From NCBI RefSeq assembly GCF_016107525.1, contig NZ_JABASR010000007.1:124001-188000 (forward strand): 64,000 nt of DNA. The letters run 5' to 3'. Numbering within the stretch: position 1 is the first letter of the stretch; each line of letters starts with the position of its first letter. The DNA is from Psychrobacter aquimaris. Lineage in GTDB: Bacteria > Pseudomonadota > Gammaproteobacteria > Pseudomonadales > Moraxellaceae. The translations under genes were made by a program, and so were the position numbers. Below, piece by piece: positions 7,654-26,655 of this stretch. The notes beneath the pieces were generated by a model. It saw only the letters and a list, made by a program, of their open reading frames with translations, had not been told where the DNA came from and made no database searches.

Positions 7654-8207
7654 AGTAACACCTCATTGTGAATTCGGTCTAATGCTATTGTTGACAGGCT
7701 TTTTATAAATATAAACCTGCTAAGAGTAACTTCTAGATTATGATGAGCAGAAACACGGTTACCAGTTGAAGAGGTAAAGCCATATTTACAGATATTTTTT
7801 AGACTTTTTACATCAGGTGCGTTTACCAATCCTTGGCTCCAAGTACTGAGTACAAGTTGTATTGGGGAGTGCTGCCATCGCTGCGCTGATTCAAGTAGAT
7901 TTTTCAGTTTCTCTTCTAGCTTAAGCTGACTAGGTTTTGACCCATCGTATCGCTCAAATTCAATTAAGCACAGCGGTTTTGTTGCGTGCATCTCAAACCA
8001 TCCTGAATCTGAGCGTATATCTGCACCAGAAGTCCCAGGCGCTGGACATTCAACAACTGCCATGTAACCTTGATCATGACCGAAGGTATTCCAAACACTA
8101 CAACCTAAGCTATGTACTAGAACATCTTGATCTATAAGTTTTGCACTGGTTAATAATGGAAAGTTGTTTGATACCCACTCAAAGTTGGGCAAAGTCATAT
8201 TAGCCAT
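7650..8207 (-). CDS. Unknown 185-aa protein, possible PD-(D/E)xK-type nuclease, between HerA and kinase
   Basis: I chose ATG at 8207: it overlaps the HerA stop by 8 bases (ATGGCTAA) and has GGGG 9 bases upstream. A longer frame opens at 8273 but would overlap HerA by 74 bases. Not recognised as a family. Seen: a central block with GADIRSDSGWFE (residues 61-72) followed by a hydrophobic strand ending in LCLIEFERYDGS (79-90). An acidic residue followed by a hydrophobic strand and E-x-E, with nearby basic residues, recalls the core of restriction-type nucleases, but the canonical E-x-K lysine is not clear. No signal peptide or membrane segment. Its tight coupling on both sides says it works with HerA and the kinase. 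The nuclease idea is weak. Confidence 0.5.
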   Translation of the reverse strand: MANMTLPNFEWVSNNFPLLTSAKLIDQDVLVHSLGCSVWNTFGHDQGYMAVVECPAPGTSGADIRSDSGWFEMHATKPLCLIEFERYDGSKPSQLKLEEKLKNLLESAQRWQHSPIQLVLSTWSQGLVNAPDVKSLKNICKYGFTSSTGNRVSAHHNLEVTLSRFIFIKSLSTIALDRIHNEVLL

Positions 8208-9885: not shown

Positions 9886-11023
9886 TATTCAATTCCTCAT
9901 CTAAGCCAGACAACCAGCGAGTTTCAATATCATTATTTTTAAGTGCACCATGTAAGCTTTGGCGATAAAACTTAGTAAATTTGGGCAAAACCCCCAGTTG
10001 CTGATAGCCTAAAAGCTGAGGTAGTGGCATAGCGTTAGCCTTGCTTTGCATATCAAGCACCATTAAGCGGGCTGCTACTAAGTCTAGGCCTGTCGTTTCC
10101 CAGTCTGGCTCGTCGCCAGCAAGCTGTACCATCTTTATTTGGCCACCACGAGCACTGCGATAATGAAAACCAATTAAGCCTTGTTGAACTTCTATACTTG
10201 GCTCTATACGATTTTCTTTTTCAGACAAACGAAACGCAATAGTACGTGAATAATTTCCTAAAACCCCATTGATAAAGCGCAGATCGCCAACTCCAGCTAG
10301 GCTTTCATCTAAATCAGCTAAGTTCATCATACGCTCTTCAGAGAACCCATCACTTAAAAGTATTTGTTGACGGCCTTTTTCTGAACGTAAATCTTGTTTG
10401 GCAATGCTAACGATAGCACTAAAGCGTTCTGCTAGTATGCTGGCGAGGACTACACCTTTCTGGTTCCATGGAAACAGTTTTGCACGGTTATTTTGCCAAA
10501 ATGTTTCAATAGCCCGTAAGGTATTTTCATATTCTTGCTTATGGCGAATATTTCGATCGAGTGGTGCCATATCCCTTGCCAAAAATAGCGGAGTATCTAG
10601 TAAAATTAAATCACAGGGCTCCCCACTTAGTAGTTGTTTTTCCACTAATTGATAAGCTTGACGAATCTCTATCAAGTCTAGACGCTTACGCTGTGCTTCA
10701 AAATCAATATCATCGAGTTCGGAAACAGAGTCGCTACCTTGTGTGCTAACTTTATTGTCTTCAATCAGCAAGTCCGTGCGGACAGCAGCACTAGCATAAA
10801 TAAATCCGCCAAGCGCTCTATCTATGCAAGATTTAGTTGCAATGCCTGATACACGGAGATTAACCACAGTTGACTTTGGTACTGCTTTAACCAATCCAGC
10901 ATCATGAAACAATGGAGCCACTTGCTCAATGTCTCTAATTTGCTTAAGCAATCTACCAGCACTTCCTGGCAGACGTAACTGGCTATCTATCGCTAAAGAC
11001 TGTGCTAAATTCATATTTTTCAT
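9875..11023 (-). CDS. NurA-like nuclease, partner of HerA
   Basis: I chose ATG at 11023, which overlaps the previous stop as TAATG; another start at 11053 would add ten residues. About 382 residues. Seen (numbered from 11053): a strand-rich region with GGFIYASAAVR (82-92), E129 in LIEIRQAY, and CDLILLDTPLFL (147-158), the place where NurA proteins carry a D-hydrophobic-D-G-S-like catalytic strand. Known: NurA is an RNase H-like 5'-3' exonuclease/endonuclease that works with HerA. The match is structural in flavour, and the classic N-terminal DGS motif is not clear, so it may be a divergent NurA. Its place directly before herA is the strongest support. Confidence 0.7.
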   Translation of the reverse strand: MKNMNLAQSLAIDSQLRLPGSAGRLLKQIRDIEQVAPLFHDAGLVKAVPKSTVVNLRVSGIATKSCIDRALGGFIYASAAVRTDLLIEDNKVSTQGSDSVSELDDIDFEAQRKRLDLIEIRQAYQLVEKQLLSGEPCDLILLDTPLFLARDMAPLDRNIRHKQEYENTLRAIETFWQNNRAKLFPWNQKGVVLASILAERFSAIVSIAKQDLRSEKGRQQILLSDGFSEERMMNLADLDESLAGVGDLRFINGVLGNYSRTIAFRLSEKENRIEPSIEVQQGLIGFHYRSARGGQIKMVQLAGDEPDWETTGLDLVAARLMVLDMQSKANAMPLPQLLGYQQLGVLPKFTKFYRQSLHGALKNNDIETRWLSGLDEELNNGI

Positions 11024-11874
11024 TATCGCGTCCCGGTTCTTAACTGTTCGCATAATAACTCAGCATAAGCCCAATAGTCAGAATTCATGAGTATAGTGGT
11101 ACCTTTTTCAGTTAGCCTATTTTCACTAATAAAGCCGTATTGGCATAGATCTAGCCAGCGTTGATCAATTGCTAGGGTAGAGGTATCAAATAACATTTTA
11201 ACCGCTTGATGCTGACAAATCTCTTTCGCTGTCAATCCTGGGATGGCATAGATTAGGAGTAATACTACCTCATCTTTTTTGTCAGGAATAAAATCAGCCT
11301 TATTAACTTCAACTATAGAGGGAGTCGTATCTCCCGAATGAGTAATTAGCCAATTTAGCCAATCCAATAATATATCGCTATGATCTAGTAGGTTTAGAGA
11401 CCAAAGGGGTAAGGTAGTCATCGCAAATAGACCACTGTTACTGTGTTTACGAATATATCGCGTATGAATTACATCAGCTATCTGATGAAGGGTTGCGTTC
11501 GAGCTGCCACTAAAACCTATAATTTTTTGGGTGATTTCATCGGCTAGTAATTTTGTTAGGCCATCAGTATTAGCATCGATAATATTTGGAGCGGCTGCCA
11601 GATGCCAATCAATTTCAAGTTCAGGTGCTTGCCAGCAGTCAGTTTTACTGGTTAACGGATCCACTACTAATGCTGCGCAACCAGTTTGCATTGACCAATG
11701 ATACAAGGTTCGCCAATCTTCTACTTGGTTTAACTCATCACCTTGCACCAGTAGTAAACCTTGTTGGGGTGGGTTGGATTGCCAGTCACTCGTCAATGGC
11801 TGCGCTTGTACAATACTATGCAAAAAACGCCCTTTGCGATTACTACCCAGTTTAGCTGATATATATATTGTCAC
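11023..11874 (-). CDS. Unknown 283-aa defence operon protein, possible winged-helix C-terminus
   Basis: Starts with GTG overlapping the ATPase stop as TAGTG. No family recognised. Residues 1-150 show alternating strands (GLLLVQGDEL, AALVVDP) without nucleotide-binding motifs. Residues 200-275 look like a winged helix: a helix followed by GLTAKEICQHQAVKM and YGFISENRLTEKGTTIL, typical of small wHTH domains of the DUF/MarR kind. No signal peptide or membrane segment. Its position between the giant ATPase and the nuclease suggests a subunit that links them or reads DNA. The function is an inference from context only. Confidence 0.7.
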   Translation of the reverse strand: MTIYISAKLGSNRKGRFLHSIVQAQPLTSDWQSNPPQQGLLLVQGDELNQVEDWRTLYHWSMQTGCAALVVDPLTSKTDCWQAPELEIDWHLAAAPNIIDANTDGLTKLLADEITQKIIGFSGSSNATLHQIADVIHTRYIRKHSNSGLFAMTTLPLWSLNLLDHSDILLDWLNWLITHSGDTTPSIVEVNKADFIPDKKDEVVLLLIYAIPGLTAKEICQHQAVKMLFDTSTLAIDQRWLDLCQYGFISENRLTEKGTTILMNSDYWAYAELLCEQLRTGTR

Positions 11875-14800
11875 TAAGCCCCCAAGCTTTCTGCAAAAGT
11901 TAAACGCATTTTTAGGATGCCTTTATCTACCAATATTTGTTGTTGCTGAATGTTCAGCTTTGGCTCTTCATTCTGATTAATGGACTCATAGATACGTTGC
12001 CACTCATCTAATGAAAGTCCAGTCCCACTAAGTGCTTTATTAGCTATTTCTTTCCAGTCATGTACTGTTCTATCACATATCAGTAGCACCTCACTTACCA
12101 TAAGCTCTTTCATATCTGAGAGATTCAATACAGTAGCATGAGGGCTAGAATGCTGCTGCGAGATGAATAAAGGCTTTAGCATGGGTAGCCAGGCATTAAC
12201 CTCTTTAATAGAGTTATCTTTCATTTGATTTAAATGTTGACTGATTTTTATTAGATCGCCATGTATGGGGGCGATTTGACCACGGGCAGGCTTTAATAGC
12301 TCATCTGGCAAATCTCGAAGGGCAGTAAACTGACCATTACGAAGGCTGGCTTGTATCAGCTGTCGTTTTTGTTCAGCATCAGAAGGCAAATCTTCTATTG
12401 CGTCTTCGATTAACTGTAGTTTATTAATCAATTTAGGTAGTTCTGCTATATCGTCTGGATGGGGGTAAGCAGCAGGAGCATCTGCTAGCTGCCTGTGCAG
12501 GCTCGCGGCTTGAGTCTTCTGTTCAGTTAAGTTGTCCAATAGCTTTTCAAAGCGTGTTTTAAAATCACGGTAACTCGTCAGAATATAGCCTTGAATCTCA
12601 GCAAGAGGCAGTTGTTGTTCGCTTTGTAGGTTCAATCCGACTTCAAATGCTAACGCATTCAATTTATTCTGTGAATGAGGTAAATCGAGTTTTCTTAAAT
12701 AATGTAACAGTGTATCGCTACCAGCTTGCTGCTCTCTTTTACCTGTGACACTTGTATTATCTTCTTTCAAGGCTCCATCAAGAATATGGCCTATGGTACG
12801 TAAAGAATTAGTATAAAGAGATTTTGGAAAATTGCTTAGAGTAGAGACATCGTTCTCAATGTCTGCGATTAAGTCGATTAAACGTCTATTAATTTTTTCA
12901 GCACTATCTTCAACGAACTCCGCAAACAAACAGGCTTGTTCGACACGCTGGAATAATGAGGTAGTCTTATCCTCTAAGTTTAAGTCATGTGAGCTCTTTA
13001 AGTTTATTTCAGAGCATTGCATAGGTTTTACTTTCGCTACTAGTGCTAATATCTTAGCTCGTTTAGCGATTAAACTAGCAAGTACACCTGTATCACTGAG
13101 GTGAGAGATATCCTGTAATTGCTCTTCTTTTTGTTTCAGGTCTATAAAAAGCTGGCGAGCTTTCTCAAGTTGCTCTTTGGCTTCCACGGTAGCGTAACCT
13201 AATGAGTTTCGACCAATAGGTGCAAATATATCGTCTATACGACCTTGACCATAGACTCGGCTCATCACCTCAACTTTGGCTTTGTACCCATCGATGCTAT
13301 CGTCATTAAACCAGTTATTGGCTTCGATAATCGCATTATCTAATCGGGATCTTGGATAGTTTTGCCACAAAGCTTGTCTATCGTTAGGGTTTTCCAAAGT
13401 TAGAAGGTTTAGTTCACCACACCACCACATCCACTCATCAAATACACTCTTCGCGGTGTTGTTGGTATCAGAAACATAGCCAAAATAAAATTTCTGTTTG
13501 AAAGATTCGAACTTCCAATTCCATTGTTTATTGGGATGTGCGATACGAGATAAAAATAGTGGGATTTGTGCCTGACTACGCTGCGGATTGTTAAGCTCAG
13601 TAAACAGTTCTGCATGTTCATCAGTAGTAAAGCCTTTAGATATAGAGCTACCAGGAACTTTTAATTTGTCTAGTAAGCTCCCGAGTTCGTCCGATGCAAC
13701 ACCATGTTCACGTTGTAAATCCATCAGACCATTGAGGTTGGGATAGTCGATGGCTAAGGTATACCAGCCTTTAAATAATAAGTTGCGATCATTCGTTGAT
13801 AGCTTGCCATCCGCTTTAAATGGCCAAGCAATTAAACCCCGCTCATGCAAACGATGTCGCCATTTTTGAATAGCATTGGTTGCAAATGTTGTTAGAGCAT
13901 TTAGCTTATTCCTAAATTTTGCAGTAAAGCTCTCAGTGTTTAAAGTAATACTGTGTTTTTCGCACAGCGCTAAGCTCAAGCCTATACGCTCTAACTGATC
14001 TGTTTCGCTAGAATTCACATAGTGTAGTAGTACTGCATCACGCAGTAGAGAGCCATTCTCTAAACGGCTGTATTGCTCCATTAAGTGAGCAGAAGCCGTT
14101 AGTGCCAACACAGGTGTGCGACCATTTTTGCGTGCGTAATCAGATGCAAAGTCGTGCAATTGGTCCAACTCAGTTTTATTGCTTATCCATGCTAGTAATA
14201 CTTTGCCATCGGGATGTAGTTTGAAACCATCTAATGTAAACAATCCGCCTCGTGGTTCGCTAAGCAGTACTAAAGGTTGACCATTACTACCAGCACTATT
14301 ACTTAGTAGGGTTTGATCGTATCTCCAGTTGTTGTCTAATAAACGGATAAAGCCTGTCAAACGAGCCAAAGATTTTAGAATGGGCTTGTGATTACTGTCC
14401 TGTAAAAGCTCAGCCATGGCTTTTTTGTGACCATCACCCATACTAGGGTCTTTAAAAATAAGCGAGTTTTGTTGTACGCTGCGGTAGCGCAAGTCTAGTC
14501 GTAATAGCATCGCAACGCTGGGTCCAATGTGGGTCGCTTCATTTATATCAAGCTCGGTCGCTTCACCGACCAGTTTTTGCCATAGCGCATCGGCGGCAAA
14601 TTCAATCGCTGGATGATCATATAGTAAGCTCAGTAAGTGCTTAAACTCACCTTTAGACAGCGGTAGTAACACGGCATGTTTATCTTCGCTTTGGACCTGC
14701 TCTTTGATAGAAAAGGTAGATATATTATCGAGCAAAGTATCTAAGCTAAGGGCTTGTTCTACAGCGGGATAGTACCATTCTTCACCTTCACGTCGGAATT

Positions 14801-16163
14801 TGGCTTCTTCTAGAGCTTTTCGACATTGCCAGCGTTCTAGACTTAACTTGCGGTAAAGAGCGGCAATCGGCTCTTCATCTTCATTTTTAAGCGCTAATAA
14901 GTCTTGAGCATTTGCTATTTGATTGATTCGAACAGGTAACTGACCATAGAGTAAGTTTTTACATTCAGCTAATAACGTTTGATCACGAGTTTGAATACCC
15001 TCAATAGCACCTTTATCTAGTACATGCTTGGCCACTCGACCAGAGCCTGCAAGTACCGCTTCAAACAGCTCTCCAATATCCTTTAATTGAGGGCCTGCTT
15101 GTTGATACTGATATAAAACAGCATCAACGTTAGCCATAATGACGTTAAACCAACCAAAGTTTGCGCCGCTCATCGCATAAGCTGCTTCTACCAAGCCAGT
15201 AGGGTACTTATGTGCTAGCTTTTCGTCTCCGTCTAGGCTTGCTACGTAGTCAGAAACATCGGCAAATGCATTATGCTCTAGCTCAACCAATTCAAAACGA
15301 CGGGCAACAGATTGAATCTCCCGAAGTTGTTGTCCCAGCAGGGGTGAACATAGCGCCACATAACGCAGCCAATGTAGCTTACGACGAGGGTCCTCTTCCT
15401 TGATTGCTTTACCAATTAAGCGAATAGCTTGACCATCTAAGCGTTTACTATCATCATCTTCTAATCCAAAGGTGGCAGCTTCAGCTACAGTTTCCAGCTC
15501 GTCTAAGACTACAAGCACATAAGATATGCCAAAGCGTTCTAATACTTTATATGCGGCTTGAACAAGATCTACTACCAATGTCGGATCGGTATATAAGTCT
15601 TCTTCGCTATGGTTGGCATTGAGCTCTAAAGCATCCGCCAAATCCTGCGCAGTGAAACCAAGCGGCATTAAACGCTCATAGGCTTGCTTGGCAATTTCAC
15701 TTTGAATTGAACCATCAAATTTCTGCGTTGCCAAAGGCAATAATGCCTGATACAAGCCAAAGGCAAACCAGTTATCAGAGTTCTGATAGTCCGAGGCAAC
15801 TTGAGAGTAGCGAATATAGAGCGCTAAATATTTATCTTGCGCTTGTGAGTCGAAAAGCTGCTGATCATGTAGACTGCCATTTTCATCACGTACAAACCAA
15901 CCTCTAGAATAGTCATTTATTTGTGCTACCAGCTCATGGCCCAAGCGCGATTTACCGCGGCCCCATTCAGCCTCTATCGCAAAAACATGGGCAAAACGGT
16001 CTTCTTCATGGTCTACGGTGTGTAAAAAGGTTTGAAAGCGCTTGAAAAATCGACTTTGGCCTACCAACGGATCACTCGGTGGATAGTCAGAAACACCAGT
16101 AGCTGCCCAGCGATGTTGCTTGGCAAGCGTAGCAACTGATTGGTCATTTAATTCAAAATTCAT
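11874..16163 (-). CDS. Giant P-loop ATPase (1429 aa) of the defence operon
   Basis: Starts with ATG overlapping the previous stop as ATGA. An N-terminal AAA/STAND-type domain carries Walker A AEWGRGKSR (residues 65-73) and Walker B YVLVVLDELE (215-224), preceded by a GQSRFF-like motif (35-40) typical of NTPases that begin with a short anchor. After about residue 400 the protein is long, mostly helical and of unknown fold; residues about 990-1060 and 1190-1290 look like coiled coil. In size and layout it resembles the BrxC/PglY ATPases of BREX/Pgl, but the sequence motifs I can see do not prove that family. Known: such giant ATPases act as scaffolds or sensors in multi-gene phage defence. Inference: central assembly or sensing subunit. 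Confidence 0.8.
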   Translation of the reverse strand: MNFELNDQSVATLAKQHRWAATGVSDYPPSDPLVGQSRFFKRFQTFLHTVDHEEDRFAHVFAIEAEWGRGKSRLGHELVAQINDYSRGWFVRDENGSLHDQQLFDSQAQDKYLALYIRYSQVASDYQNSDNWFAFGLYQALLPLATQKFDGSIQSEIAKQAYERLMPLGFTAQDLADALELNANHSEEDLYTDPTLVVDLVQAAYKVLERFGISYVLVVLDELETVAEAATFGLEDDDSKRLDGQAIRLIGKAIKEEDPRRKLHWLRYVALCSPLLGQQLREIQSVARRFELVELEHNAFADVSDYVASLDGDEKLAHKYPTGLVEAAYAMSGANFGWFNVIMANVDAVLYQYQQAGPQLKDIGELFEAVLAGSGRVAKHVLDKGAIEGIQTRDQTLLAECKNLLYGQLPVRINQIANAQDLLALKNEDEEPIAALYRKLSLERWQCRKALEEAKFRREGEEWYYPAVEQALSLDTLLDNISTFSIKEQVQSEDKHAVLLPLSKGEFKHLLSLLYDHPAIEFAADALWQKLVGEATELDINEATHIGPSVAMLLRLDLRYRSVQQNSLIFKDPSMGDGHKKAMAELLQDSNHKPILKSLARLTGFIRLLDNNWRYDQTLLSNSAGSNGQPLVLLSEPRGGLFTLDGFKLHPDGKVLLAWISNKTELDQLHDFASDYARKNGRTPVLALTASAHLMEQYSRLENGSLLRDAVLLHYVNSSETDQLERIGLSLALCEKHSITLNTESFTAKFRNKLNALTTFATNAIQKWRHRLHERGLIAWPFKADGKLSTNDRNLLFKGWYTLAIDYPNLNGLMDLQREHGVASDELGSLLDKLKVPGSSISKGFTTDEHAELFTELNNPQRSQAQIPLFLSRIAHPNKQWNWKFESFKQKFYFGYVSDTNNTAKSVFDEWMWWCGELNLLTLENPNDRQALWQNYPRSRLDNAIIEANNWFNDDSIDGYKAKVEVMSRVYGQGRIDDIFAPIGRNSLGYATVEAKEQLEKARQLFIDLKQKEEQLQDISHLSDTGVLASLIAKRAKILALVAKVKPMQCSEINLKSSHDLNLEDKTTSLFQRVEQACLFAEFVEDSAEKINRRLIDLIADIENDVSTLSNFPKSLYTNSLRTIGHILDGALKEDNTSVTGKREQQAGSDTLLHYLRKLDLPHSQNKLNALAFEVGLNLQSEQQLPLAEIQGYILTSYRDFKTRFEKLLDNLTEQKTQAASLHRQLADAPAAYPHPDDIAELPKLINKLQLIEDAIEDLPSDAEQKRQLIQASLRNGQFTALRDLPDELLKPARGQIAPIHGDLIKISQHLNQMKDNSIKEVNAWLPMLKPLFISQQHSSPHATVLNLSDMKELMVSEVLLICDRTVHDWKEIANKALSGTGLSLDEWQRIYESINQNEEPKLNIQQQQILVDKGILKMRLTFAESLGA

Positions 16164-17416
16164 AGTCCACTTCCTTGAATATTAATAAGCTTCGCTGCTC
16201 GTATATCTCGTGCCGTTTGTTTCATAGCTTGTTGTAAACGCGCGCTTCTATAGCCAAAAATAGGTGCTAGTGGCAAGCTATAGCAAGTATCACTAAAGTC
16301 TGGATTAATGCTATAAAGTCCTGCTTCGTTACGTCCACCTTCCTTAAACTGCCAAATTTGGTAACTTAGTAGGTTGGCAATTAATGGTGCTAACGCTCGG
16401 TTTAGGTCATGAGTATTTGGTATTTTTGGATATAGCGAGATGTTTAAATTGTTAAATAATGCCAGTAAAAACGCTGCCAAATTTCCAACATTGACTTCAT
16501 CACCTTCTATCCCTTGCACGACCACACTGATTTCTGTTGGCGAAAAGGCATTCTGGTTACTGGGTAATGTAAGTAGCAAGCTATCGCGTTGTTCAGCTGC
16601 CCAAGCATCTTGTACAAATACGAGTAAGCTTAGAAGAAATAACCAAGGTTGCTGAGTGAATATTGTTAAATGTGATGAAGTGTCACTACTTGAACCTCGT
16701 TCAGTAAGTATCCACGATGCATGAGGTTTAGTTTGATTTAATAGAGAATAAGGTAGTGCTAGTAAACGTCTTGCACACCAGTTTTCATCAAGAGCTTTAG
16801 GATTATTATCAATGGGCGGTAGAGTGGCTAGTGTTGAATCGGCTTCGTGAGCGCTACGCTGAGCGATACTATTCAGCTGATAACTGGCTTTTAAAATCCT
16901 AAGTAGGGCTGGCAAGGCTGCGTTATCATGCAGGCTATGTCCGATCAGCTCGTACTCTAGGTCACTCAATGGTCCAGCACAGAGCTGAGGATTCACAGAA
17001 GTGTCTTCCAACGCTTCTAGCACCCATGCGCTGGCATTACCAAGTTGGCTAATGATTTTGATCAGCATCTGCGGATCGCGCATATTACCGGCTTCACGGC
17101 AGCGTGCAGCAGCCAAGCATAGCCAATGTGCACGGTATCTTGGGTTTAAGCCTAAGAGAGCCAGTTGCCATTCACCAAGTTGGCTTAATGTGCTAAATGC
17201 TATCAATAGGGGGGCGGTCAGAGTATATGCAATTGGAGTATCTGAATATTCATTGTCGCTAATAGGTTGTAACAGCCCGTTTTGTAATAATGGCATAGTA
17301 GCGAAGACCTCAGCAGCTGGTTCGGCAGCTATGCCGCCTCTTTGCCAAAGTAAGGCACAAGTTGTGCTGGCACGTTCCGCCTGAAGCAGCAATGAAGTTT
17401 CGCTGATGGCCATCAT
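16160..17416 (-). CDS. Unknown 418-aa defence operon protein
   Basis: Starts two bases after the specificity-subunit stop (two adjacent ATGs, at 17416 and 17413) and ends inside the ATPase start. I recognise no family. It is helix-rich and hydrophobic in places (for example residues 60-90 and 265-280, WLFLLSLLVFVQDAWAA) but shows no clear transmembrane topology or signal peptide. No nucleotide-binding or nuclease motif seen. Because it lies between the methylase/specificity pair and the giant ATPase with coupled starts, it probably bridges modification and effector parts. A search against the MADS and BREX gene sets would tell whether it is a known accessory subunit. Confidence 0.7.
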   Translation of the reverse strand: MMAISETSLLLQAERASTTCALLWQRGGIAAEPAAEVFATMPLLQNGLLQPISDNEYSDTPIAYTLTAPLLIAFSTLSQLGEWQLALLGLNPRYRAHWLCLAAARCREAGNMRDPQMLIKIISQLGNASAWVLEALEDTSVNPQLCAGPLSDLEYELIGHSLHDNAALPALLRILKASYQLNSIAQRSAHEADSTLATLPPIDNNPKALDENWCARRLLALPYSLLNQTKPHASWILTERGSSSDTSSHLTIFTQQPWLFLLSLLVFVQDAWAAEQRDSLLLTLPSNQNAFSPTEISVVVQGIEGDEVNVGNLAAFLLALFNNLNISLYPKIPNTHDLNRALAPLIANLLSYQIWQFKEGGRNEAGLYSINPDFSDTCYSLPLAPIFGYRSARLQQAMKQTARDIRAAKLINIQGSGL

Positions 17417-17418
17417 CG

Positions 17419-18960
17419 CTAGTCCTCACTATCAGCAGCAGTGGCGCTTGCCAGTAAGCGATAAAGCTCATCTATATCACTGAATAGTGGCGTAGCACCC
17501 TCTACAGCATAACCTTCGCTACTGAGTTTACTTAAGATAGTTTTATCTAGTGTGTTGTCGCCATCCTCTAGCGCTTGTTGGGCTTGAATCAGTTGTTCTT
17601 CAGTTAGTTGGCCTTCGATTAGCGCTTCGACTAGGGTTTTGGCTGTTCTTATGAGCGATTTTGACGCTCTAGTAGTAAGCTCATAATTTTCTAGTAGAGT
17701 TAAACAAGTTGTTTTTTTATTTAGAACATAATCTGGGATGTATAATGCAAGTAACTCTTCTTGACCAATCTGAGGCTGTACAGCGCCATAGCTAATCTTG
17801 TGAAGAAGTATTTTTCCGGCAGTAGAGTTAAGAAAGACTGAGACGGCTGCAGCTGTTTCTTCTTCTTCAAACTCTAAACGAATAAGATGACTACTTATGA
17901 CACAACCCTTATCTAGTATATTTACTTTGATAGCTGTACCGATAGAGCCTGTTCTTACCACTAATACACATCGCTCATGAATTATAGCTTTTGAAGGTAT
18001 GCTGATATCTGATCCAATTTGGGGAGCATCTTGTACATTTAACCGTCCTGAAGATACTTCTGTTACTGTAATATAGGGTACACCTTCATTAACAAAATTA
18101 CGCTCTTCAAAGCCGTTGGCAATAGATTTAATCAGAGAGCCTAGTAATGTACCGGATTTTTTAGTAAAACGTTCTACAGCAATTGCTTTACTATCATAAT
18201 ATTTAGGATCAAGACGATTAGATAAGTCATTTAATGTTGGGTGACTAATTTTGGCGTCAGGTGTGTTACAAGCTACTAGATACTCACTTGTATTCAAAAC
18301 TTGTTCAATTTCTGATTCCAGCTCTTTAGCCCAAGCGCGTAGTTGCTCAGCCTGACGAACTTTATCTCCAATATATTTTTGTGCATCTAATTCAACTTTT
18401 GGAATTATTAAAGCCCTGATACTTGGAAAGTCAATTGCCGGACGTGTTGCGCCATAAGCCTCGCGCCAAATAGCGATCTGTCCAGTAGGACAATTTAAAT
18501 ATGCAACTAAAAAATGAGAATCTATTTTTTCAGAGCTAGGTTTAAAGCGAACTGAATGTTGGCTTATGTTTCCTGGTAGATGATCAGCTCCTACTACGGC
18601 AGACTTACCAAATTTAGCACCAGTAATCGTGAGCAGAATGTCACCCTCTATTAGTCTGCTACGCTTTAATTTTTCATCATCTTCATCGGTAATATAAACA
18701 GCTTCTTCTGATACTAAAAACATTTCTTCGACTTCAGAGGTTCTGTAAAAACGTACACGACCTTTTTCGAGGTAGTTAGCACCTAATGGTGTTGCTCCAC
18801 TTGAAACTCCATGTTCTGAATTGATCACTGATTCAAGAGATAGGTTGCCTAGGTTTTTAGCTATTTTATTAATCTGCTTTTCAAAAGACGGCTGATAGTG
18901 CCAAGGATCTATTCTTCTATCTGTTAGCTTGGACGGTGATTGTTTATAAATGACTACCAT
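17419..18960 (-). CDS. Type I restriction-modification specificity subunit (HsdS-like)
   Basis: 513 residues with the classic two-half layout: target recognition domain 1 (about 20-195), a helical spacer (about 195-230, IGDKVRQAEQLRAWAKELES), target recognition domain 2 (about 245-410) and a second helical region (about 410-475). Repeated halves share motifs such as GDILLTITGAKFGKSAVV in the first and RCVLVVRTGSIGTAIKV in the second. Known: each recognition domain reads one half of a split DNA target and steers the methylase there. Start overlaps the methylase stop as TAATG, so the two are translated together. The C-terminal tail (about 475-513) is acidic. No HsdR gene is found nearby. Confidence 0.9.
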   Translation of the reverse strand: MVVIYKQSPSKLTDRRIDPWHYQPSFEKQINKIAKNLGNLSLESVINSEHGVSSGATPLGANYLEKGRVRFYRTSEVEEMFLVSEEAVYITDEDDEKLKRSRLIEGDILLTITGAKFGKSAVVGADHLPGNISQHSVRFKPSSEKIDSHFLVAYLNCPTGQIAIWREAYGATRPAIDFPSIRALIIPKVELDAQKYIGDKVRQAEQLRAWAKELESEIEQVLNTSEYLVACNTPDAKISHPTLNDLSNRLDPKYYDSKAIAVERFTKKSGTLLGSLIKSIANGFEERNFVNEGVPYITVTEVSSGRLNVQDAPQIGSDISIPSKAIIHERCVLVVRTGSIGTAIKVNILDKGCVISSHLIRLEFEEEETAAAVSVFLNSTAGKILLHKISYGAVQPQIGQEELLALYIPDYVLNKKTTCLTLLENYELTTRASKSLIRTAKTLVEALIEGQLTEEQLIQAQQALEDGDNTLDKTILSKLSSEGYAVEGATPLFSDIDELYRLLASATAADSED

Positions 18961-21104
18961 TACTCACCCCGCTTATAAGCAGAAGCAATTAAATCTAAAT
19001 CGTTTGACACGCCGGCGTTATAGTCTTCGATATTATTTTTCACCAAATAACCTAACGTTTCAGCCACTGCCATAAACACATCAGTTTGCGGTTCCGGTAA
19101 GAACTGCTCAGGCTGATCAGGACTGGCACGGCGCTTTTGTAAATACATGATTGAAGTCTTCGCACCCGTACCAGACAGTTTAAAACAATCACTGGGTAGT
19201 GATATCACCGCTCTTACGATGGCCTTACCACCGACGAACTCACCTGTTTTTTCATCTTTTTTACCCATGATGTACTCACGCACGTAGCGATCGCCTGAGT
19301 TACATAATATGCCATCAGGTAGTACAATCATCAGTCGCCCACCAGGTTTAAGTAGTTGCAAACAGCGGTCTATAAACAGTACAGCGGGATCAATGCTCGC
19401 ACCAACTGGCTTCCAGTTGCCTTTTTTATCAGGCTTACTGCCAAGTGCCAAGCCATCAGTGGAAGGTGCCAGGCTGTAAGTTGGCTTTTTATCAGTGCCA
19501 CCGGTCTGACGTAAGTCGGTACGGTAGCCGGCCCATTTAGGATTTCCATTTTCATCAAGATATAGGTCGCCAGTATCATCCCAACGCATTTTTAGATGGT
19601 CGTAATAGGCGTTGTAACTATCCGCCATCTGTTCTGTTGGTCGAAAGCCACCAAGTACTTGCTCCATGTTGGCTTCATAGTTCTTTTTCGAAGCCTGTCC
19701 ATTCTTGCCTTTATCAAATTTTGGTGTGCCAAACGGCGGGTTAGTGCAGATAAGGTCAAAACTGTTAGGCTTAAGTGCTGCAGTAGTCAATGAGTTGTCC
19801 GTATAGAATATCTGAGCCTTTGGAGCGCCTTGCAATGCCATATTGACTCGTGCCAGCATAACCATACGCGGTGCAGCATCAGCACCAGTGAAGCCTTCAT
19901 TGCGTAGTTTTTGTTTTAGTGCTTCTTTTTCACGATCGTCTAATCCACCAAGCTGGGTATCGATAAGATGGTCTAATTGACTTAATGCCACTGAGCCAAA
20001 GCCAAATGAACCACAGGTTGGATCACAAAATCTGAAGTCGCCATTAGATAAGCGTGCGATAGCGTCATCGTCTTTAGCAATATCATTGATGGCTATCTCT
20101 AACATGGCTTGCTTGACCGGGTTAGGGGTGAGGTAGACACCTAGGCCGCCTTTGGATTCAAAGTTAGCACGTAGGAATACATCGAATACTCGGCCTAATA
20201 AATCACCAGAGACATCACCTAGGGTGCCGTTTTCTTTTGCTGTGCGTCCATCATTATTGATAACGGGACCAAGGTTTTGTAAGGCTTCAAGTAAATCTTC
20301 ATAGTTTTTCGGTACAGATAGTCTCAAATGAGTATCGTCTGAAAAAATGGCATTTTTCGATCCGTCATCACTGGTGACAATATAATCCTCATGTGATTTA
20401 AACTCATTAAAAGCATCTTTGATTAAGTTGACCGCTTTCTCGCCTTCTTTCTTTACATACTGCCAATTAAATACGGAGCTAAATAGGTGTTTATTGCCCT
20501 GTTTATCAGTGAATTGAATATCAGGGTGGTAAATACGGAAGCTTTCTAAAAACAATAGCTTAGCGACTTCTTCAATAATATCGTTTTTATCGTTAACTTT
20601 ATCTTTAGTAACGCGATAGACGTTTTCATGAAAAGCATCAAAGCGGTGCATTAGGCGCGTATAGATACGCATGGACCAGCGAAAAGTGGGATCACGCTCT
20701 AACCGATCAAAACTGTTTAATTCCTCTAAGCTAGGAAGAACATCGACACCATGGGTACCATCAGAGCCATCAGAACCAAATAGACTCAGGATACGGTTGT
20801 TAGTACCATCGCTGATAACAGCGAATACTGGCCAATCACTGTCAGTGTCACTGAGTAGCGTATAGGCTAAATCATCAAACTTAGCCGTATCAGCAGCATT
20901 TTCCCAATGACCTTCTGCCAGCGCTAGTAGCATGACAGGTGGCGTTAGATTGCCCTCTACCATCCCTTGTACTAAGCCTGCTTTGGCAAAATCGTGCGAT
21001 GATAGCTCTAATACAGGTTGGTCGAAATTTCGATGTTGTTTAACCAGTTGGTTAAATAGGTCAGTGAGTTGAGCTTGTTTATTACTCTTATTGTCTTTTG
21101 CCAT
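18960..21104 (-). CDS. Type I-like N6-adenine DNA methyltransferase (HsdM-like)
   Basis: 714 residues. The SAM-binding motif DPTCGSFGFG lies at 361-370 and the catalytic NPPF at 455-458, the order of gamma-class N6-adenine methylases as in HsdM. The N-terminal ~300 residues are a helical domain longer than in E. coli HsdM (529 aa), and the motif LGVYLTPNPVKQAM (321-334) matches the usual LG-x-FYTP box. Known: with HsdS it would methylate one adenine per half-site and mark host DNA as self. In BREX/Pgl the same role is filled by PglX, which, however, carries its own recognition domain; here a separate S subunit is used. It is 59 bases downstream of a 127-aa gene and leads the main block of the operon. 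Confidence 0.9.
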   Translation of the reverse strand: MAKDNKSNKQAQLTDLFNQLVKQHRNFDQPVLELSSHDFAKAGLVQGMVEGNLTPPVMLLALAEGHWENAADTAKFDDLAYTLLSDTDSDWPVFAVISDGTNNRILSLFGSDGSDGTHGVDVLPSLEELNSFDRLERDPTFRWSMRIYTRLMHRFDAFHENVYRVTKDKVNDKNDIIEEVAKLLFLESFRIYHPDIQFTDKQGNKHLFSSVFNWQYVKKEGEKAVNLIKDAFNEFKSHEDYIVTSDDGSKNAIFSDDTHLRLSVPKNYEDLLEALQNLGPVINNDGRTAKENGTLGDVSGDLLGRVFDVFLRANFESKGGLGVYLTPNPVKQAMLEIAINDIAKDDDAIARLSNGDFRFCDPTCGSFGFGSVALSQLDHLIDTQLGGLDDREKEALKQKLRNEGFTGADAAPRMVMLARVNMALQGAPKAQIFYTDNSLTTAALKPNSFDLICTNPPFGTPKFDKGKNGQASKKNYEANMEQVLGGFRPTEQMADSYNAYYDHLKMRWDDTGDLYLDENGNPKWAGYRTDLRQTGGTDKKPTYSLAPSTDGLALGSKPDKKGNWKPVGASIDPAVLFIDRCLQLLKPGGRLMIVLPDGILCNSGDRYVREYIMGKKDEKTGEFVGGKAIVRAVISLPSDCFKLSGTGAKTSIMYLQKRRASPDQPEQFLPEPQTDVFMAVAETLGYLVKNNIEDYNAGVSNDLDLIASAYKRGE

Positions 21105-21163: not shown

Positions 21164-21547
21164 TTAAGTATCAAGTACTAAAAATGGTCCTTTGACGCTC
21201 ATTTGTTGGTTTTGTTCAGCCAGTTTACGTAACTGCTGCTCAGTGATAGTCGTGCCAGCTGGTAGTTTCTTTAAAACTTGTGTGAGAGGCATACGCCCAC
21301 CAGAATTTCGCAATAGAGTAGCTAGATGCTCTGTGATATTGGAGGTTGTTTGATATGCTGATTTAGGTTCGTTTAATACATGACGTGCTGGCAAGGCTGC
21401 TAGCCATAGCGCTACTTGGGCTTGATTAAAACCTAAAGAATGCCAAAGCTCCTGCTGTTCACTAAAAAGGTCGTCTGCAGATTTTTCTGACGTTTTCAGT
21501 TGATCAATAAGCTGATTAAGCAGTGAGTTTTGAGTTTCTTGATACAT
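21164..21547 (-). CDS. Small unknown protein (127 aa) at the head of the defence operon
   Basis: Begins two bases after the HTH gene, with AAGGAA six bases before the ATG. Mostly helical and polar; a glutamine-rich N-terminus (residues 1-40) is followed by a helix-turn-helix-like C-terminal half (about 70-120: TEHLATLLRNSGGRMPLTQVLKK, TITEQQLRKLAEQN), which could be a small winged helix. I do not recognise a family. Its position beside the HTH regulator suggests either a second regulator or a structural subunit of the methylase complex. Confidence 0.65.
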   Translation of the reverse strand: MYQETQNSLLNQLIDQLKTSEKSADDLFSEQQELWHSLGFNQAQVALWLAALPARHVLNEPKSAYQTTSNITEHLATLLRNSGGRMPLTQVLKKLPAGTTITEQQLRKLAEQNQQMSVKGPFLVLDT

Positions 21548-21994: not shown

Positions 21995-23419
21995 CTACGA
22001 TAAATAACGTGAAAAAGCATCTTCGAAGTCTGTAATATCGTAGCCCTTACCTCGTACTTCATTACCGCGTAAGTCATGCGCCCTGATATCTTTGGATGAA
22101 ATTTTGAATTCACTCAATCTTTTAGCGATTTGTCGTAAAGTGATAGGCTTTCCATGATTTAAAGTTGACCAACTCATTTCTGGGTCTCGACGTAACTCAG
22201 TTAATAAATCCCTACTTAAAAGTCTATTAGTTTGAGTTAAAATAAAAACGGTTCTAATATCAGATAATAGCTGCTCATTTGAACTGGGCTCCTCGCTATC
22301 ACTACCTGATATTTCGATACAAGCTTTATAAGCCTGCTCTAGCCAGTTATCATCAAGTATAGAAGCAATTTTAAGCAAGATTTCCCAGTTATCCTGTGCC
22401 CGATCGTTGACGCAAACAGGTAGCACTGGCATAGCTGCTTTTACCGCTAGCATATTATCATCAGACCATCTAGCGAGTTTTGATTGGATAGTATTAGTGA
22501 CATCTTCAGGTAGATCGCGAACCCGTTTTTTTGTCTCACTTTTCATTTTTCGACGCAGTGTTAGAGGTATTGATCGATCTATTAATGTGCTAGGGATTTT
22601 GCCAATACCCGAGATGGCTTTAGCGCCATAAACATTGAATGGTATTAACTTGTTATCATCACCAAAACAGCGCATAACATATGGATTATCACGACTATGT
22701 CCCGCATTTAGTACGCCGCGTATACCTTCATTCTCATTGAGAAACGTGTCAACCTCATCAATAAATAATGTTGGTTTGTAGGCTTCAATGCAACGAAATA
22801 GCGCTGGCCCTGTGATGTTAGATGTCGATAGTGACCGATTGCTTATCCTGCTCATCAACGTCAACAGCGTGGTTTTTCCACAACGTTTTTCGGGCGCATT
22901 AATCCAGGCAATTGGCAGTATATGGCTTGCTGGTATTACCCAGGTCATCAATATCCATAGTGTAACAGCTACTTTAACTGCGTCAGTACAAGCTATGTGA
23001 TCGTCCAATATCTGGGATATTTGGTCAGCTAATAGGGCGATGTCTGCTACTGGTTCTGCGTATGGCTCAGTATCAACGACCAAACTATCAGAGGACTCAG
23101 ACTCCAATCTACCTTTAGCTCTCTTGACCAGCTTATCCAGTGATCGAACTGACATATTGTTGAGAGATTTCGCGGTTTCAGTGCGTTCTAGTTCATACTC
23201 TAGTTCTGATAATGTAGCTAGTCTGTCAATCGTAGCTTGTGCTAAATCAGAGCTAATTTTTAGGTCTTGTTGTGGTAAAATAATCGATGATGGCTCGTCA
23301 ATGTCATCTGTAGTGGTTTTTGAGAGCTGGTCATCCTGCAAGATGAGCAGCTTTTTTATTGGGTCAGCTGATTGCTTATCGGCTAACTCAGGAAGAGAGA
23401 TATAATCATTCTTACTCAT
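21995..23419 (-). CDS. DUF3631 P-loop ATPase, phage/island primase-helicase-like
   Basis: 474 residues. Walker A APEKRCGKTT (175-184) and Walker B PTLFIDEVDTF (216-226), followed by NEGIRGVLNAGH and GKIPSTLIDRSIPLTLRRK (sensor-like region), which is the pattern of the DUF3631 domain found in phage- and plasmid-borne replication proteins. Residues 1-150 form a charged, probably helical lead with a possible zinc-free linker; no TOPRIM or primase polymerase motif is visible, so this seems to be only the helicase half. It begins two bases after the AlpA-like gene. Known: such proteins start replication of satellite elements and integrative islands. Inference: replication or maintenance gene of this island. 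Confidence 0.8.
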   Translation of the reverse strand: MSKNDYISLPELADKQSADPIKKLLILQDDQLSKTTTDDIDEPSSIILPQQDLKISSDLAQATIDRLATLSELEYELERTETAKSLNNMSVRSLDKLVKRAKGRLESESSDSLVVDTEPYAEPVADIALLADQISQILDDHIACTDAVKVAVTLWILMTWVIPASHILPIAWINAPEKRCGKTTLLTLMSRISNRSLSTSNITGPALFRCIEAYKPTLFIDEVDTFLNENEGIRGVLNAGHSRDNPYVMRCFGDDNKLIPFNVYGAKAISGIGKIPSTLIDRSIPLTLRRKMKSETKKRVRDLPEDVTNTIQSKLARWSDDNMLAVKAAMPVLPVCVNDRAQDNWEILLKIASILDDNWLEQAYKACIEISGSDSEEPSSNEQLLSDIRTVFILTQTNRLLSRDLLTELRRDPEMSWSTLNHGKPITLRQIAKRLSEFKISSKDIRAHDLRGNEVRGKGYDITDFEDAFSRYLS

Positions 23420-23421
23420 GA

Positions 23422-23703
23422 TTATCTCTCCCCATCGTTAGAGGACGCAGAATGTTTCTCTATCCATTTGTTTATATCAGATAGACGCCAGAGGCTAGCT
23501 CCATCTATTTTGATGGGCGCTGGGAATCGATTCTGTCTAATCATCTTATAAATATGTTTGGATGAGAAACCTACGATACCTCGTTTGGCGCTTTTAGCAG
23601 TAACTGTTTTCTGGCGACCAGACTGGGTAGTATATGTTCGTGCCTTGATTTCGGGACAGTTAGCAAGGTCTGACATTCGTAGAAATTGTTCATTCGTTTT
23701 CAT
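23422..23703 (-). CDS. AlpA-like DNA-binding regulator
   Basis: 93 residues. The C-terminal half has the AlpA/excisionase HTH: GFSSKHIYKMIRQNRFPAPI (47-66) and DGASLWRLSDINKWIEKH (68-85). An N-terminal basic region (KARTYTTQSGRQKTVTAKSAKRG) precedes it. Known: AlpA-type proteins in P4-like islands activate int or direct excision. It is followed directly by the DUF3631 gene, so the two form one operon. Candidate binder of the TTAACAAC repeats before int. Confidence 0.8.
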   Translation of the reverse strand: MKTNEQFLRMSDLANCPEIKARTYTTQSGRQKTVTAKSAKRGIVGFSSKHIYKMIRQNRFPAPIKIDGASLWRLSDINKWIEKHSASSNDGER

Positions 23704-23809
23704 TATAGTTTACTCCGCAGCATGGTTATGGCCAGTAGTAGCTAGTGCTGTTGAGTAATGATAATCGACAGATTTAATAAATAGTATAGTTATGCGCGCA
23801 TAATAAATT

Positions 23810-24670
23810 TTATGATAAATTACCTTTTGCAGCTTCACTTATCAATTTATAAACATATTCATAAGTAGGTTTCTCATCTGTATCTATGTATTCTTTAATG
23901 TACCTCGTAGTTTCAGCATATTTTTTAAAACCCTGCTCCTCCATTATTGCAAGATACTCTTTTTTCTTCTGTTGTCTATACTCAGACTGTGGAGCCCATC
24001 TAGCTTCAGATGCTATAGTGCCGTTTAAGGAAGCCATTTTTTCGAAATAATCATTTCTATCGTAACCAATTTGCACAGCACTGCCAGCGAAAAGATACAT
24101 TGCGAAGTCATGGTAATTTAAACACAATTCGTATGCAGTTGACTCATAAGCTATCAGAGCTATACTCTTAAAAATATATATTCTAAAAATCTCATCTAGC
24201 ATAATCCCAATTCTTTTAATCTCTTCAATGGAATGAGGATTTAATATTTTATGAAAAATTTCACGTTTATTCTCAATATCATCTAAAGATTCATCAATTT
24301 TAATGAAGTTGCTTTCTATATATCGGTTCAAAGCATACTGATCTATATCAACATTATGTATCTCAGGGTCATAACCTTCTGAGTATTTTTTTATATTTTT
24401 AAAAAAATACTCATCATCAAATTCAAATTTCGTATCTACATAGTTTTTAGCAAAAACTTCTACGCTATCTAAAAAGAAAATGTTATTTCTTTGCTTATGG
24501 ATATGACATGTTTCATGCTCTAGAATTCGTCTAGCTATATCTATAGTTCTTGGCTTAGATATAGTCTGTTCTATAGCAGTATTTACGTTTTTAAAATTCT
24601 GCTTTGTTAAGAAGTTTTCAAAAGATTTTTTGTTTGAAGAGATGGTGGTTGATTGATTACTGGAGTTCAT
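23810..24670 (-). CDS. Unknown 286-aa protein, strongly AT-rich gene
   Basis: Not recognised. Lysine-, asparagine- and isoleucine-rich, with visibly more A/T than its neighbours, which points to transfer from another source. Mostly helical; residues about 30-60 contain RRILEHETCHIHKQRN, whose H-E-T-C-H spacing faintly recalls a metal-binding HExxH-like motif but is not canonical. No signal peptide. It stands alone between the AlpA-like gene and int, with AT-rich spacers on both sides, a usual spot for cargo such as anti-phage or toxin genes. Function unknown. Confidence 0.65.
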   Translation of the reverse strand: MNSSNQSTTISSNKKSFENFLTKQNFKNVNTAIEQTISKPRTIDIARRILEHETCHIHKQRNNIFFLDSVEVFAKNYVDTKFEFDDEYFFKNIKKYSEGYDPEIHNVDIDQYALNRYIESNFIKIDESLDDIENKREIFHKILNPHSIEEIKRIGIMLDEIFRIYIFKSIALIAYESTAYELCLNYHDFAMYLFAGSAVQIGYDRNDYFEKMASLNGTIASEARWAPQSEYRQQKKKEYLAIMEEQGFKKYAETTRYIKEYIDTDEKPTYEYVYKLISEAAKGNLS

Positions 24671-24894: not shown

Positions 24895-26367
24895 TTAGTT
24901 TGATTTAATTTGTTTAACGATCTGTATTAATAGATCAGGCGACACACCTTGTGCTTGTAAGCTTTTTATTAAAACATCTTTATCATGCAAAGCTATATCG
25001 ACCGCTTGCTCATCACGACTACGCATTTTTTTAGTAATTTCATCTGGCGTCATTAAGTCAAAATTAACAGCCTTGCCAGCTCGAAGGTCATCTAAATGAT
25101 TTGCCCACTGGTTCATCATCATTTGCCGTTCTGCTAGATGGGCTGACAAGTCATAACGTTTTTTTACACTGGACTGCTCAAGGTGGGCTAGCTGTATTTC
25201 TATAAGGTTTTGACTAAACTGCAACTCGTATAGTCCTGTGCTGGCAAGCTGCCTAAAGCCATGGCCTGTCATTTTAGGGTAAGGGTCGCCCGTGTAGCCC
25301 ATACGTTTTAATGCCTGATTGAACCATACATCGCTGTACGGTTTGCTACGCTCAAAGTTATAAAATACGTAACCCGTCTTTTCTGTCAAAGGTCGCATGC
25401 GCTCGATAATGGCCATTGCCTGTGGTGACAAGGGAATAATGTGATCTTGACGCATTTTCATCTTATGCGCTGGGATACGCCAAACATTTTTATGATAATC
25501 AATCTCTGACCACTCAAAAAATCTTAGCTCTTTCGTTCTGACAAAACACAATGTCATCAGTTGCATGCCAGCGATAGTCTGTTGATGCGCATTTGGATTG
25601 TCTGCACCGTATTGATCAATATTGCGTAGTAGCTCAGGGAATTGGTGCTGCTCAATAGCTTTCATGCGCTCAGCTTTATGAGGTCGTAATGCTTTGCTGC
25701 GACCATAAGCGATGTTGATGATATCGTAGCCTAATGTATTGATAGCATACTCGAAGACTGAGCTGATCAAGGCAACGCACTTGTGCGACGTATCGGTCGT
25801 CCATTTGCCTCGTTCTTCAAAATAGGTTTGGATTGCTAGCCCAGTTTTGATGACGTCCTGTGCAGTAATAGAGGCAATAGGGTAGTCACCAATATGAGGT
25901 GAAATATGCTTATCTAAATAATTATGGAGTTTTTGAACGTTCTTGGGTGTAGTGCTAGATCTTTCGTTAATATAGCTCTTAGCGATAACTCTGAATAAAT
26001 CTTTTTGCTCAAAGTTATTCTTTTCATGACTTTTGTATTCAGTAGGATCAACGCCATCACTGAGCAGTGCCTGAGCTTTATCACGTGCTAGCCGCGCCTC
26101 TTTTAGCGACACCTCTGGTTTAAAGGTAGAATCAATAGCTTGTTTGGCTGGCTTATAAATACCAATTTGATACGTTTTTTGCTTAGGTTTGAGGTCTTTG
26201 TCAGATTGATAGCGATAAGTCATCTGCCAAAACAGTGAGCCATTTGGATGTTGTATTAGATATAAGTTGTTGCCATCACCATGGCGTGTGACTTTGGTAG
26301 GCGTAGACTGTTTTGCAATTGCTTTCACGCCAGCGTCAGTTAATCGGTAGTCTTTTTTTCTTGTCAT
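24895..26367 (-). CDS. P4-type tyrosine integrase
   Basis: 490 residues. N-terminal DUF4102 arm-binding domain (about 1-110: LTDAGVKAIAKQ, GDGNNLYLIQHPNGSLFWQ), core-binding domain (about 120-215), and catalytic domain with R in FVRTKELRFFEW, HGFRQLASTGLY and the tyrosine in VKKRYDLSAHLAERQ. Length and motifs match the P4/CTnscr family. Known: these insert into tRNA 3' ends; here the tRNA-Arg(CCU) gene begins about 210 bases upstream. The ATG at 26367 is supported by the standard N-terminal motif. Likely catalyses island integration and, with a directionality factor, excision. Confidence 0.93.
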   Translation of the reverse strand: MTRKKDYRLTDAGVKAIAKQSTPTKVTRHGDGNNLYLIQHPNGSLFWQMTYRYQSDKDLKPKQKTYQIGIYKPAKQAIDSTFKPEVSLKEARLARDKAQALLSDGVDPTEYKSHEKNNFEQKDLFRVIAKSYINERSSTTPKNVQKLHNYLDKHISPHIGDYPIASITAQDVIKTGLAIQTYFEERGKWTTDTSHKCVALISSVFEYAINTLGYDIINIAYGRSKALRPHKAERMKAIEQHQFPELLRNIDQYGADNPNAHQQTIAGMQLMTLCFVRTKELRFFEWSEIDYHKNVWRIPAHKMKMRQDHIIPLSPQAMAIIERMRPLTEKTGYVFYNFERSKPYSDVWFNQALKRMGYTGDPYPKMTGHGFRQLASTGLYELQFSQNLIEIQLAHLEQSSVKKRYDLSAHLAERQMMMNQWANHLDDLRAGKAVNFDLMTPDEITKKMRSRDEQAVDIALHDKDVLIKSLQAQGVSPDLLIQIVKQIKSN

Positions 26368-26579: not shown

Positions 26580-26655
26580 TGGTGCGCCCACCAAGACTCG
26601 AACTCGGATCGATCGCTTAGGAGGCAACTGCTCTATCCTGTTGAGCTATAGGCGC
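26580..26655 (-). tRNA. tRNA-Arg (anticodon CCU)
   Basis: 76 bases, complete, with encoded CCA. On the minus strand the acceptor is GCGCCTA with TGGGCGC, D-arm GCTC...GAGC, anticodon stem GTTGC/GCGAT with loop CTCCTAA (anticodon CCT), and T-arm CCGAG-TTCGAGT-CTTGG. Its 3' end faces the island and is the likely attachment site. It reads the rare AGG codon. Confidence 0.93.

Follow-up and report, generated by a model that had tools for sequence, protein, structure and literature searches.

A Type I-like methylase and specificity subunit of Psychrobacter aquimaris lie in a conserved nine-gene operon, a candidate modification-guided defence system with HerA and no HsdR

The genes analyzed here encode a Type I-like DNA methylase (M) and its specificity subunit (S) in Psychrobacter aquimaris (contig NZ_JABASR010000007.1, positions 124,001 to 188,000; this entire stretch of 64,000 nucleotides is termed the window, and positions are counted from its first letter). 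An earlier note, made from the letters alone, described an intact M/S pair with no restriction subunit HsdR in the window and suggested that HerA and NurA, encoded downstream, might replace it as the translocating nuclease. The pair was confirmed over the exact span 17419-21104 as two intact, neighbouring genes on the minus strand that overlap by one base. M (18960-21104, 714 amino acids) is a Type I-like N6-adenine DNA methylase with the motifs DPTCGSFGFG and NPPF; it is matched by Pfam N6_Mtase, by the sequences of solved Type I M proteins and, at 1406 bits and over the whole profile, by the PADLOC model MTase_I (PDLC03023). S (17419-18960, 513 amino acids) has the two-domain build that had been noted, with two Methylase_S stretches and a match to Specificity_I (PDLC03120) at 356 bits over almost its full length.

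The M and S genes are the first two of nine genes, all on the minus strand and mostly touching or overlapping their neighbours. Downstream of S follow u418 (16160-17416), a protein of 418 amino acids, and a P-loop ATPase of 1429 amino acids (11874-16163), whose Walker motifs WGRGKSR and VVLDELET are invariant or almost so among aligned relatives. They are succeeded by u283 (11023-11874, 283 amino acids) and by a protein of 392 amino acids with a predicted NurA fold that lacks the motif-I catalytic Asp (9875-11053); u418 is kept between S and the ATPase in related loci, and u283 between the ATPase and the NurA-fold gene. HerA (8200-9885, 561 amino acids), a DNA-pumping ATPase, has the HAS-barrel, the DUF87 domain and both Walker A and Walker B, and among solved structures it is closest to the HerA in the HerA-NurA complex of T. 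kodakarensis. The last two genes encode u207 (7650-8273, start codon uncertain), a predicted PD-(D/E)xK nuclease with the BamHI-like residues E75, D89 and E105-x-E107, and a Ser/Thr protein kinase (6184-7653, 489 amino acids, GTG start, Pkinase 116 bits), whose residues K49, D145 and D163 are kept in all 47 aligned sequences. Across aligned relatives the motifs of HerA, the ATPase, the kinase and M are intact. No useful family was found in Pfam, NCBIfam, PADLOC or the PDB sequences for the ATPase, u283, u418, u207 or the NurA-fold protein, and the 2026 release of NCBIfam holds no model for these five. The earlier note did not mention u207, the kinase, u418 or u283. Upstream of M lies a small protein of 127 amino acids (21164-21547, minus strand), winged-helix-like by eye and without a family match above cut-off; it is found at this place in 36 of the 49 complete loci described below and is a possible regulator.

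The absence of HsdR extends from the window to the whole genome. Neither the window nor the host genome, which is 99.99% complete at 3.43 Mb, gave a match to HSDR_N (PF04313), with matches in nine of 14 control genomes serving as positive control, and the genome has no Methylase_S gene other than S. A search for HsdR elsewhere through ResIII was equally negative: the matches examined, from which three weaker ones in frames of 355-599 amino acids were left out, are other helicases. Judged by eye, they are the Res of a Type III system with an adjacent SNF2-like helicase, a RapA-like protein and Mfd, and, in shorter open reading frames, PriA, RecG, UvrB and an RNA helicase of the DEAD-box type. 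The first two belong to a separate Type III restriction island of the same genome (Mod, Res, helicase and integrase; L011:4946-14320, contig C3). The operon persists without HsdR in other hosts as well, 17 of 50 having no HSDR_N match above cut-off. With the operon kept in these genomes and in that of the window's host, HsdR is unlikely to be a concealed partner of the M/S pair.

To follow the operon beyond this host, 84,980 species genomes were searched with the ATPase, a protein that has no match in the family libraries. At least 68 loci were found in species genomes and three more in viral contigs; the scan used two seven-residue patterns, and the locus counts are a lower bound. All nine genes are present in 49 loci, 47 genomic and two on viral contigs, which amount to 48 distinct ones because L086 and L057 appear identical in sequence; many incomplete loci stop at contig edges. 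The order M, S, u418, ATPase, u283, NurA-fold gene, HerA, u207 and kinase is collinear in 47 of the 49 complete loci, and the remaining two differ just by an upstream-extended start of a reading frame. The genera concerned include Psychrobacter, Ewingella, Pantoea, Vibrio, Pseudoalteromonas, Legionella, Azospirillum, Methylobacterium, Nitrosomonas, Calothrix, Lyngbya and Chthoniobacter, with more distant loci in Herbinix and Clostridium, and the operon spans the distance from Psychrobacter to Planctomycetes, Cyanobacteria, Acidobacteria and Clostridia. Its nearest relatives are in Psychrobacter (ATPase 97-98% identical). The distribution is sporadic: among 369 genomes of the class both the M family and u207 occur in the host only, and u207 is present in three of 146 relatives, all of one genus.

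The members of the operon have diverged together, with the exception of S. Pairwise distances of the eight other members correlate with one another at r 0.75-0.98, and those of S correlate with all of them at just 0.36-0.40. The least diverged member is HerA, with a median distance of 0.25; the value for M is 0.38. In close operon pairs, such as Ewingella and Pantoea, two Legionella and two Clostridia, the S proteins are 32-39% identical while the remaining proteins are mostly 85-100% identical, some pairs being lower. The target reader S, the sole fast-changing member, is thus exchanged while the rest of the machine is retained, as judged from these sequence comparisons. Collinearity of nine genes together with the correlated distances of all members except S identifies the operon as one unit, and the HerA that had been pointed out downstream of M/S is thereby part of the machine.

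A model of the NurA-fold protein, built on an alignment of 40 sequences, has a predicted local distance difference test score (pLDDT) of 83. Structural alignment of the model to S. solfataricus NurA (2ygk) covered 281 residues with a Z score of 20.4 and a root-mean-square deviation of 3.6, and Foldseek gave E 1.8e-10; the Z score was 19.1 for T. kodakarensis NurA, 15.0 for a TdpB-like chain of TdpAB and approximately 11 for unrelated RNase H folds. Pfam NurA did not match the window protein and reached a best E of 0.038 in two of 40 family members, and a profile comparison of the family with six genuine NurA proteins was not significant, so that the kinship with NurA rests on predicted structure. 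In these six proteins the Asp of the first DGS motif (D87) is invariant, and its equivalent in T. kodakarensis NurA is presumably D49. The motif-I position of the NurA-fold family (V-x-G in the first strand), as placed by sequence context and strand order, is occupied by Ser, Ala, Thr, Gly or Val and never by Asp in all 47 sequences; the Glu of helix alpha-1 is kept in 28 of 47 and the Asp of strand 4 (D153) in 46 of 47. The substitution D49A abolished the nuclease activity of T. kodakarensis NurA (PMC12977600). Without the motif-I Asp, the NurA-fold protein is unlikely to work as a NurA nuclease.

Alignment and structural model both point to u207 as the better nuclease candidate. Its model (pLDDT 91) has a core of one helix, three strands, a helix and a strand, as in PD-(D/E)xK nucleases. 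A second-look alignment returned a coherent list of endonuclease-like folds, with Z scores, in a range where chance folds also occur, of 8.5 for OkrAI, 8.2 for a XisH-family protein, 7.9 for BamHI, 7.7 for Card1 and BglII, 7.5 for BstYI and 7.2 for McrC. The active site of BamHI consists of E77, D94 and E111-x-E113. The E-D-ExE arrangement of u207 resembles it, and E75, D89, E105, E107 and K122 are invariant in all 47 sequences. The case for a nuclease is built on this fold list and these invariant residues taken together. The earlier suggestion of a NurA downstream was accordingly borne out in part: the protein has the predicted fold and belongs to the same unit as M and S, but it escapes the Pfam NurA model, and its assignment as the cutter is not supported.

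The operon probably resides in a mobile island. This is indicated on one side by a tyrosine integrase (24895-26367, minus strand, Phage_integrase 72 bits), not itself part of the machine, beside tRNA-Arg(cct) (26580-26655, minus strand, detected by ARAGORN), the probable integration site, and on the other side by a large protein resembling integrases, next to which lies a companion gene; attachment repeats of the island were not identified. Between operon and integrase (21995-24670) lie typical island genes for a DUF3631 protein, an AlpA-type regulator and a protein of 286 amino acids without a family match. Facing the kinase end is a three-gene cassette (window 14-5090; L016:11063-17091) encoding proteins of 189 and 770 amino acids, neither with a family match, and an integrase-like protein of 1060 amino acids, which may be a second mobile unit. 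Two IMG/VR contigs classed as viral, L086 and L087, also contain the whole operon; the first of them, which matches L057 (Nitrosomonas communis), is possibly an integrated element. Searches of plasmids and phages gave no match to the ATPase, and in plasmids there was none to the NurA-fold protein and only distant generic relatives of M and HerA. Several loci carry additional genes. A trypsin-like serine protease gene, recognised by eye and possibly an extra effector, lies between S and u418 in Chthoniobacter flavus (L069:7931-8761) and in a contig of the viral collection (L017:7931-8764) whose sequence is apparently identical. Other cargo genes for proteins of approximately 350-400 amino acids occur among S, u418 and the ATPase (L074:8925-9977, L065:8928-9983, L047:7015-8202 and L050:7586-8752), and PIN-like toxin genes were seen by eye in L025, L047, L062 and L042. 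In the most distant relatives (L082, L084 and L085) S does not follow M but stands between HerA and the NurA-fold gene; this arrangement, in which u418 and u283 were not detected, is a possible second architecture of the system.

We infer that these proteins form a complex that acts in an ordered manner. S would steer M towards the adenines of a split target, whose methylation marks self DNA, and the M/S complex, together with u418, u283 and the large ATPase, would report unmethylated targets on entering DNA. HerA, docked on the NurA-fold protein, would then translocate the unmethylated DNA, with the NurA-fold protein acting chiefly as a coupling collar; u207, as a PD-(D/E)xK nuclease, would cut through its BamHI-like active site, and the Ser/Thr kinase may gate or sense activation. 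It is considered reasonably probable that M and S serve recognition and modification in a nine-gene, modification-guided defence system in which HerA pumps, u207 cuts and the NurA-fold protein forms a collar. The more far-reaching proposal is offered tentatively, with somewhat less than even confidence: an undescribed restriction machine in which an interchangeable M/S pair sets the self mark, HerA replaces HsdR, a nuclease-dead NurA serves as collar for a BamHI-like nuclease, and the kinase and the 1429-amino-acid ATPase exert control. The idea that HerA and NurA replace HsdR as the translocating nuclease would thus hold insofar as a HerA machine stands in for HsdR and is probably wrong in letting NurA cut. 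Several observations weigh against the proposal. Two thirds of the other host genomes (33 of 50) do carry HsdR somewhere, and no fold could be assigned to u418, u283 and most of the ATPase, the first two of which went undetected in the most distant relatives. For u207, Foldseek returned no significant match (best E 0.02), and its highest Z score of 8.5, in the range where chance folds are met as well, is not decisive by itself. The motif-I position of the NurA-fold protein depends on its placement by sequence context and strand order, and the protein's conserved D114, D115, D153, E284 and H297 could make a rearranged site.

In one rival reading HerA pumps and the NurA-fold protein itself cuts, as in the archaeal HerA-NurA complex, with u207 as an accessory. 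The clear NurA fold (Z 20.4) fits this reading, as do the location of the gene directly before a HerA whose best solved relative comes from a true HerA-NurA complex, the retention of D153 in 46 of 47 sequences and the invariance of other polar residues. Both proteins furthermore match TdpAB, which is a HerA/NurA-like defence pair. However, the motif-I Asp is absent throughout, the alpha-1 Glu is kept in 28 sequences only and the better conserved active site is that of u207, which makes NurA cutting unlikely, if not negligibly so. Cutting might also be dispensable. Exclusion of phages without cleavage has long been assumed for BREX-like systems, and methylation could here be combined with, for example, a block of replication by HerA, the kinase and the ATPase, u207 and the NurA-fold protein being structural. 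The kinase and the large ATPase have no known nuclease function, and RNase H and PD-(D/E)xK-like folds, both predicted here, can be repurposed; in the methylation-associated defence system (MADS), which has M, S, kinase and HerA in common with the operon, the restriction step is still listed as unknown (PMC12904381). A purely structural u207 would have no need of four predicted catalytic acids that are invariant in 47 of 47 sequences, and exclusion without cutting is regarded as quite unlikely. The least probable explanation, to which very little credence is given, is that of an orphan or decaying Type I system, in which M and S, after losing HsdR, survive as a methylase that is solitary or serves regulation, while HerA and NurA next to them are a repair pair of no relation. 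Solitary M/S pairs exist, and the genome does lack HsdR. Against this stand the single order of nine genes in 49 loci from several phyla, the correlated divergence, the intact motifs and the turnover of S, which is expected of a target-recognition subunit and argues against decay, as well as the M family being confined to the host among the 369 genomes of the class.

Standard annotation would class the M/S pair as a broken Type I system, and PADLOC, which holds a near-perfect model of the operon's M, files it under the generic MTase_I. Homology of M and S and the turnover of S are indeed shared with Type I restriction-modification; the operon is set apart from it by the absence of HsdR, and in addition M has no Pfam HsdM_N match and translocation is assigned to HerA rather than to a DEAD-box HsdR. 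The HerA-NurA end-resection complex likewise has HerA and a NurA-fold partner in neighbouring genes, but the operon differs in the missing motif-I Asp, in the presence of modification genes, kinase and u207 and in having no Mre11/Rad50. BamHI-like endonucleases are similar to u207 in fold and in E-D-ExE; no sequence similarity to them was detected, and u207 has a multi-gene setting and a length of approximately 180 residues only. A HerA/FtsK-type pump with a nuclease-fold partner is also used in defence by TdpAB, HerA-DUF4297, HerA-SIR2, DndFGH and BREX-related capture systems, among which none was found that combines M/S, kinase, NurA fold and u207. The accessible portions of surveys of HerA/FtsK and BREX-related systems contain no such combination (PMC10853773, PMC12839542). 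The openly accessible literature that was searched gave no account of the nine-gene operon; subscription papers and preprints were outside this search, and an earlier description is possible.

The nearest known system is MADS, reportedly described by Maestri et al. in 2024. In both, a single multi-gene operon without HsdR carries Type I-like M and S together with a HerA-like ATPase and a Ser/Thr kinase. For comparison, two MADS loci were located through the curated model MAD6, at 730 and 726 bits (among 349 genomes of the genus to which P. frederiksbergensis belongs, two have MADS, and no MAD5 was found in 274 genomes of the class), and searched with profiles of the nine operon proteins. If the operon were a divergent MADS subtype, the matches of its M, S and kinase profiles to MADS proteins at 97, 150 and 132 bits would be accounted for, with HerA reaching 17 bits. 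However, the gene order of the MADS loci is M, a P-loop ATPase of 449 amino acids, a protein of 235 amino acids, S, a kinase of approximately 1390 amino acids, a protein of 557 amino acids and a large, weakly HerA-like protein, and their kinase begins with a NERD-like region that contrasts with the 489-amino-acid kinase of the operon. The 449-, 235- and 557-amino-acid proteins gave no match to the nine profiles at E<1 except for spurious frames, and no counterpart of the NurA-fold protein, u207, u283, u418 or the 1429-amino-acid ATPase was detected in the MADS loci. The scores for MAD2, MAD5 and MAD6 were 111, 133 and 117 bits, far below the curated cut-offs of 720, 400 and 460 bits, and a MADS subtype is judged improbable; an operon alike in outline, outside MADS and distantly related to it is the best reading of this comparison. 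If the proposal holds, defence operons across several phyla have been counted as orphan methylases, a NurA has been converted from nuclease to adaptor, and an answer emerges to how methylation-marked HerA systems restrict. On the available sequences and models, the operon is best read as an uncatalogued modification-guided defence system with a distant relationship to MADS.

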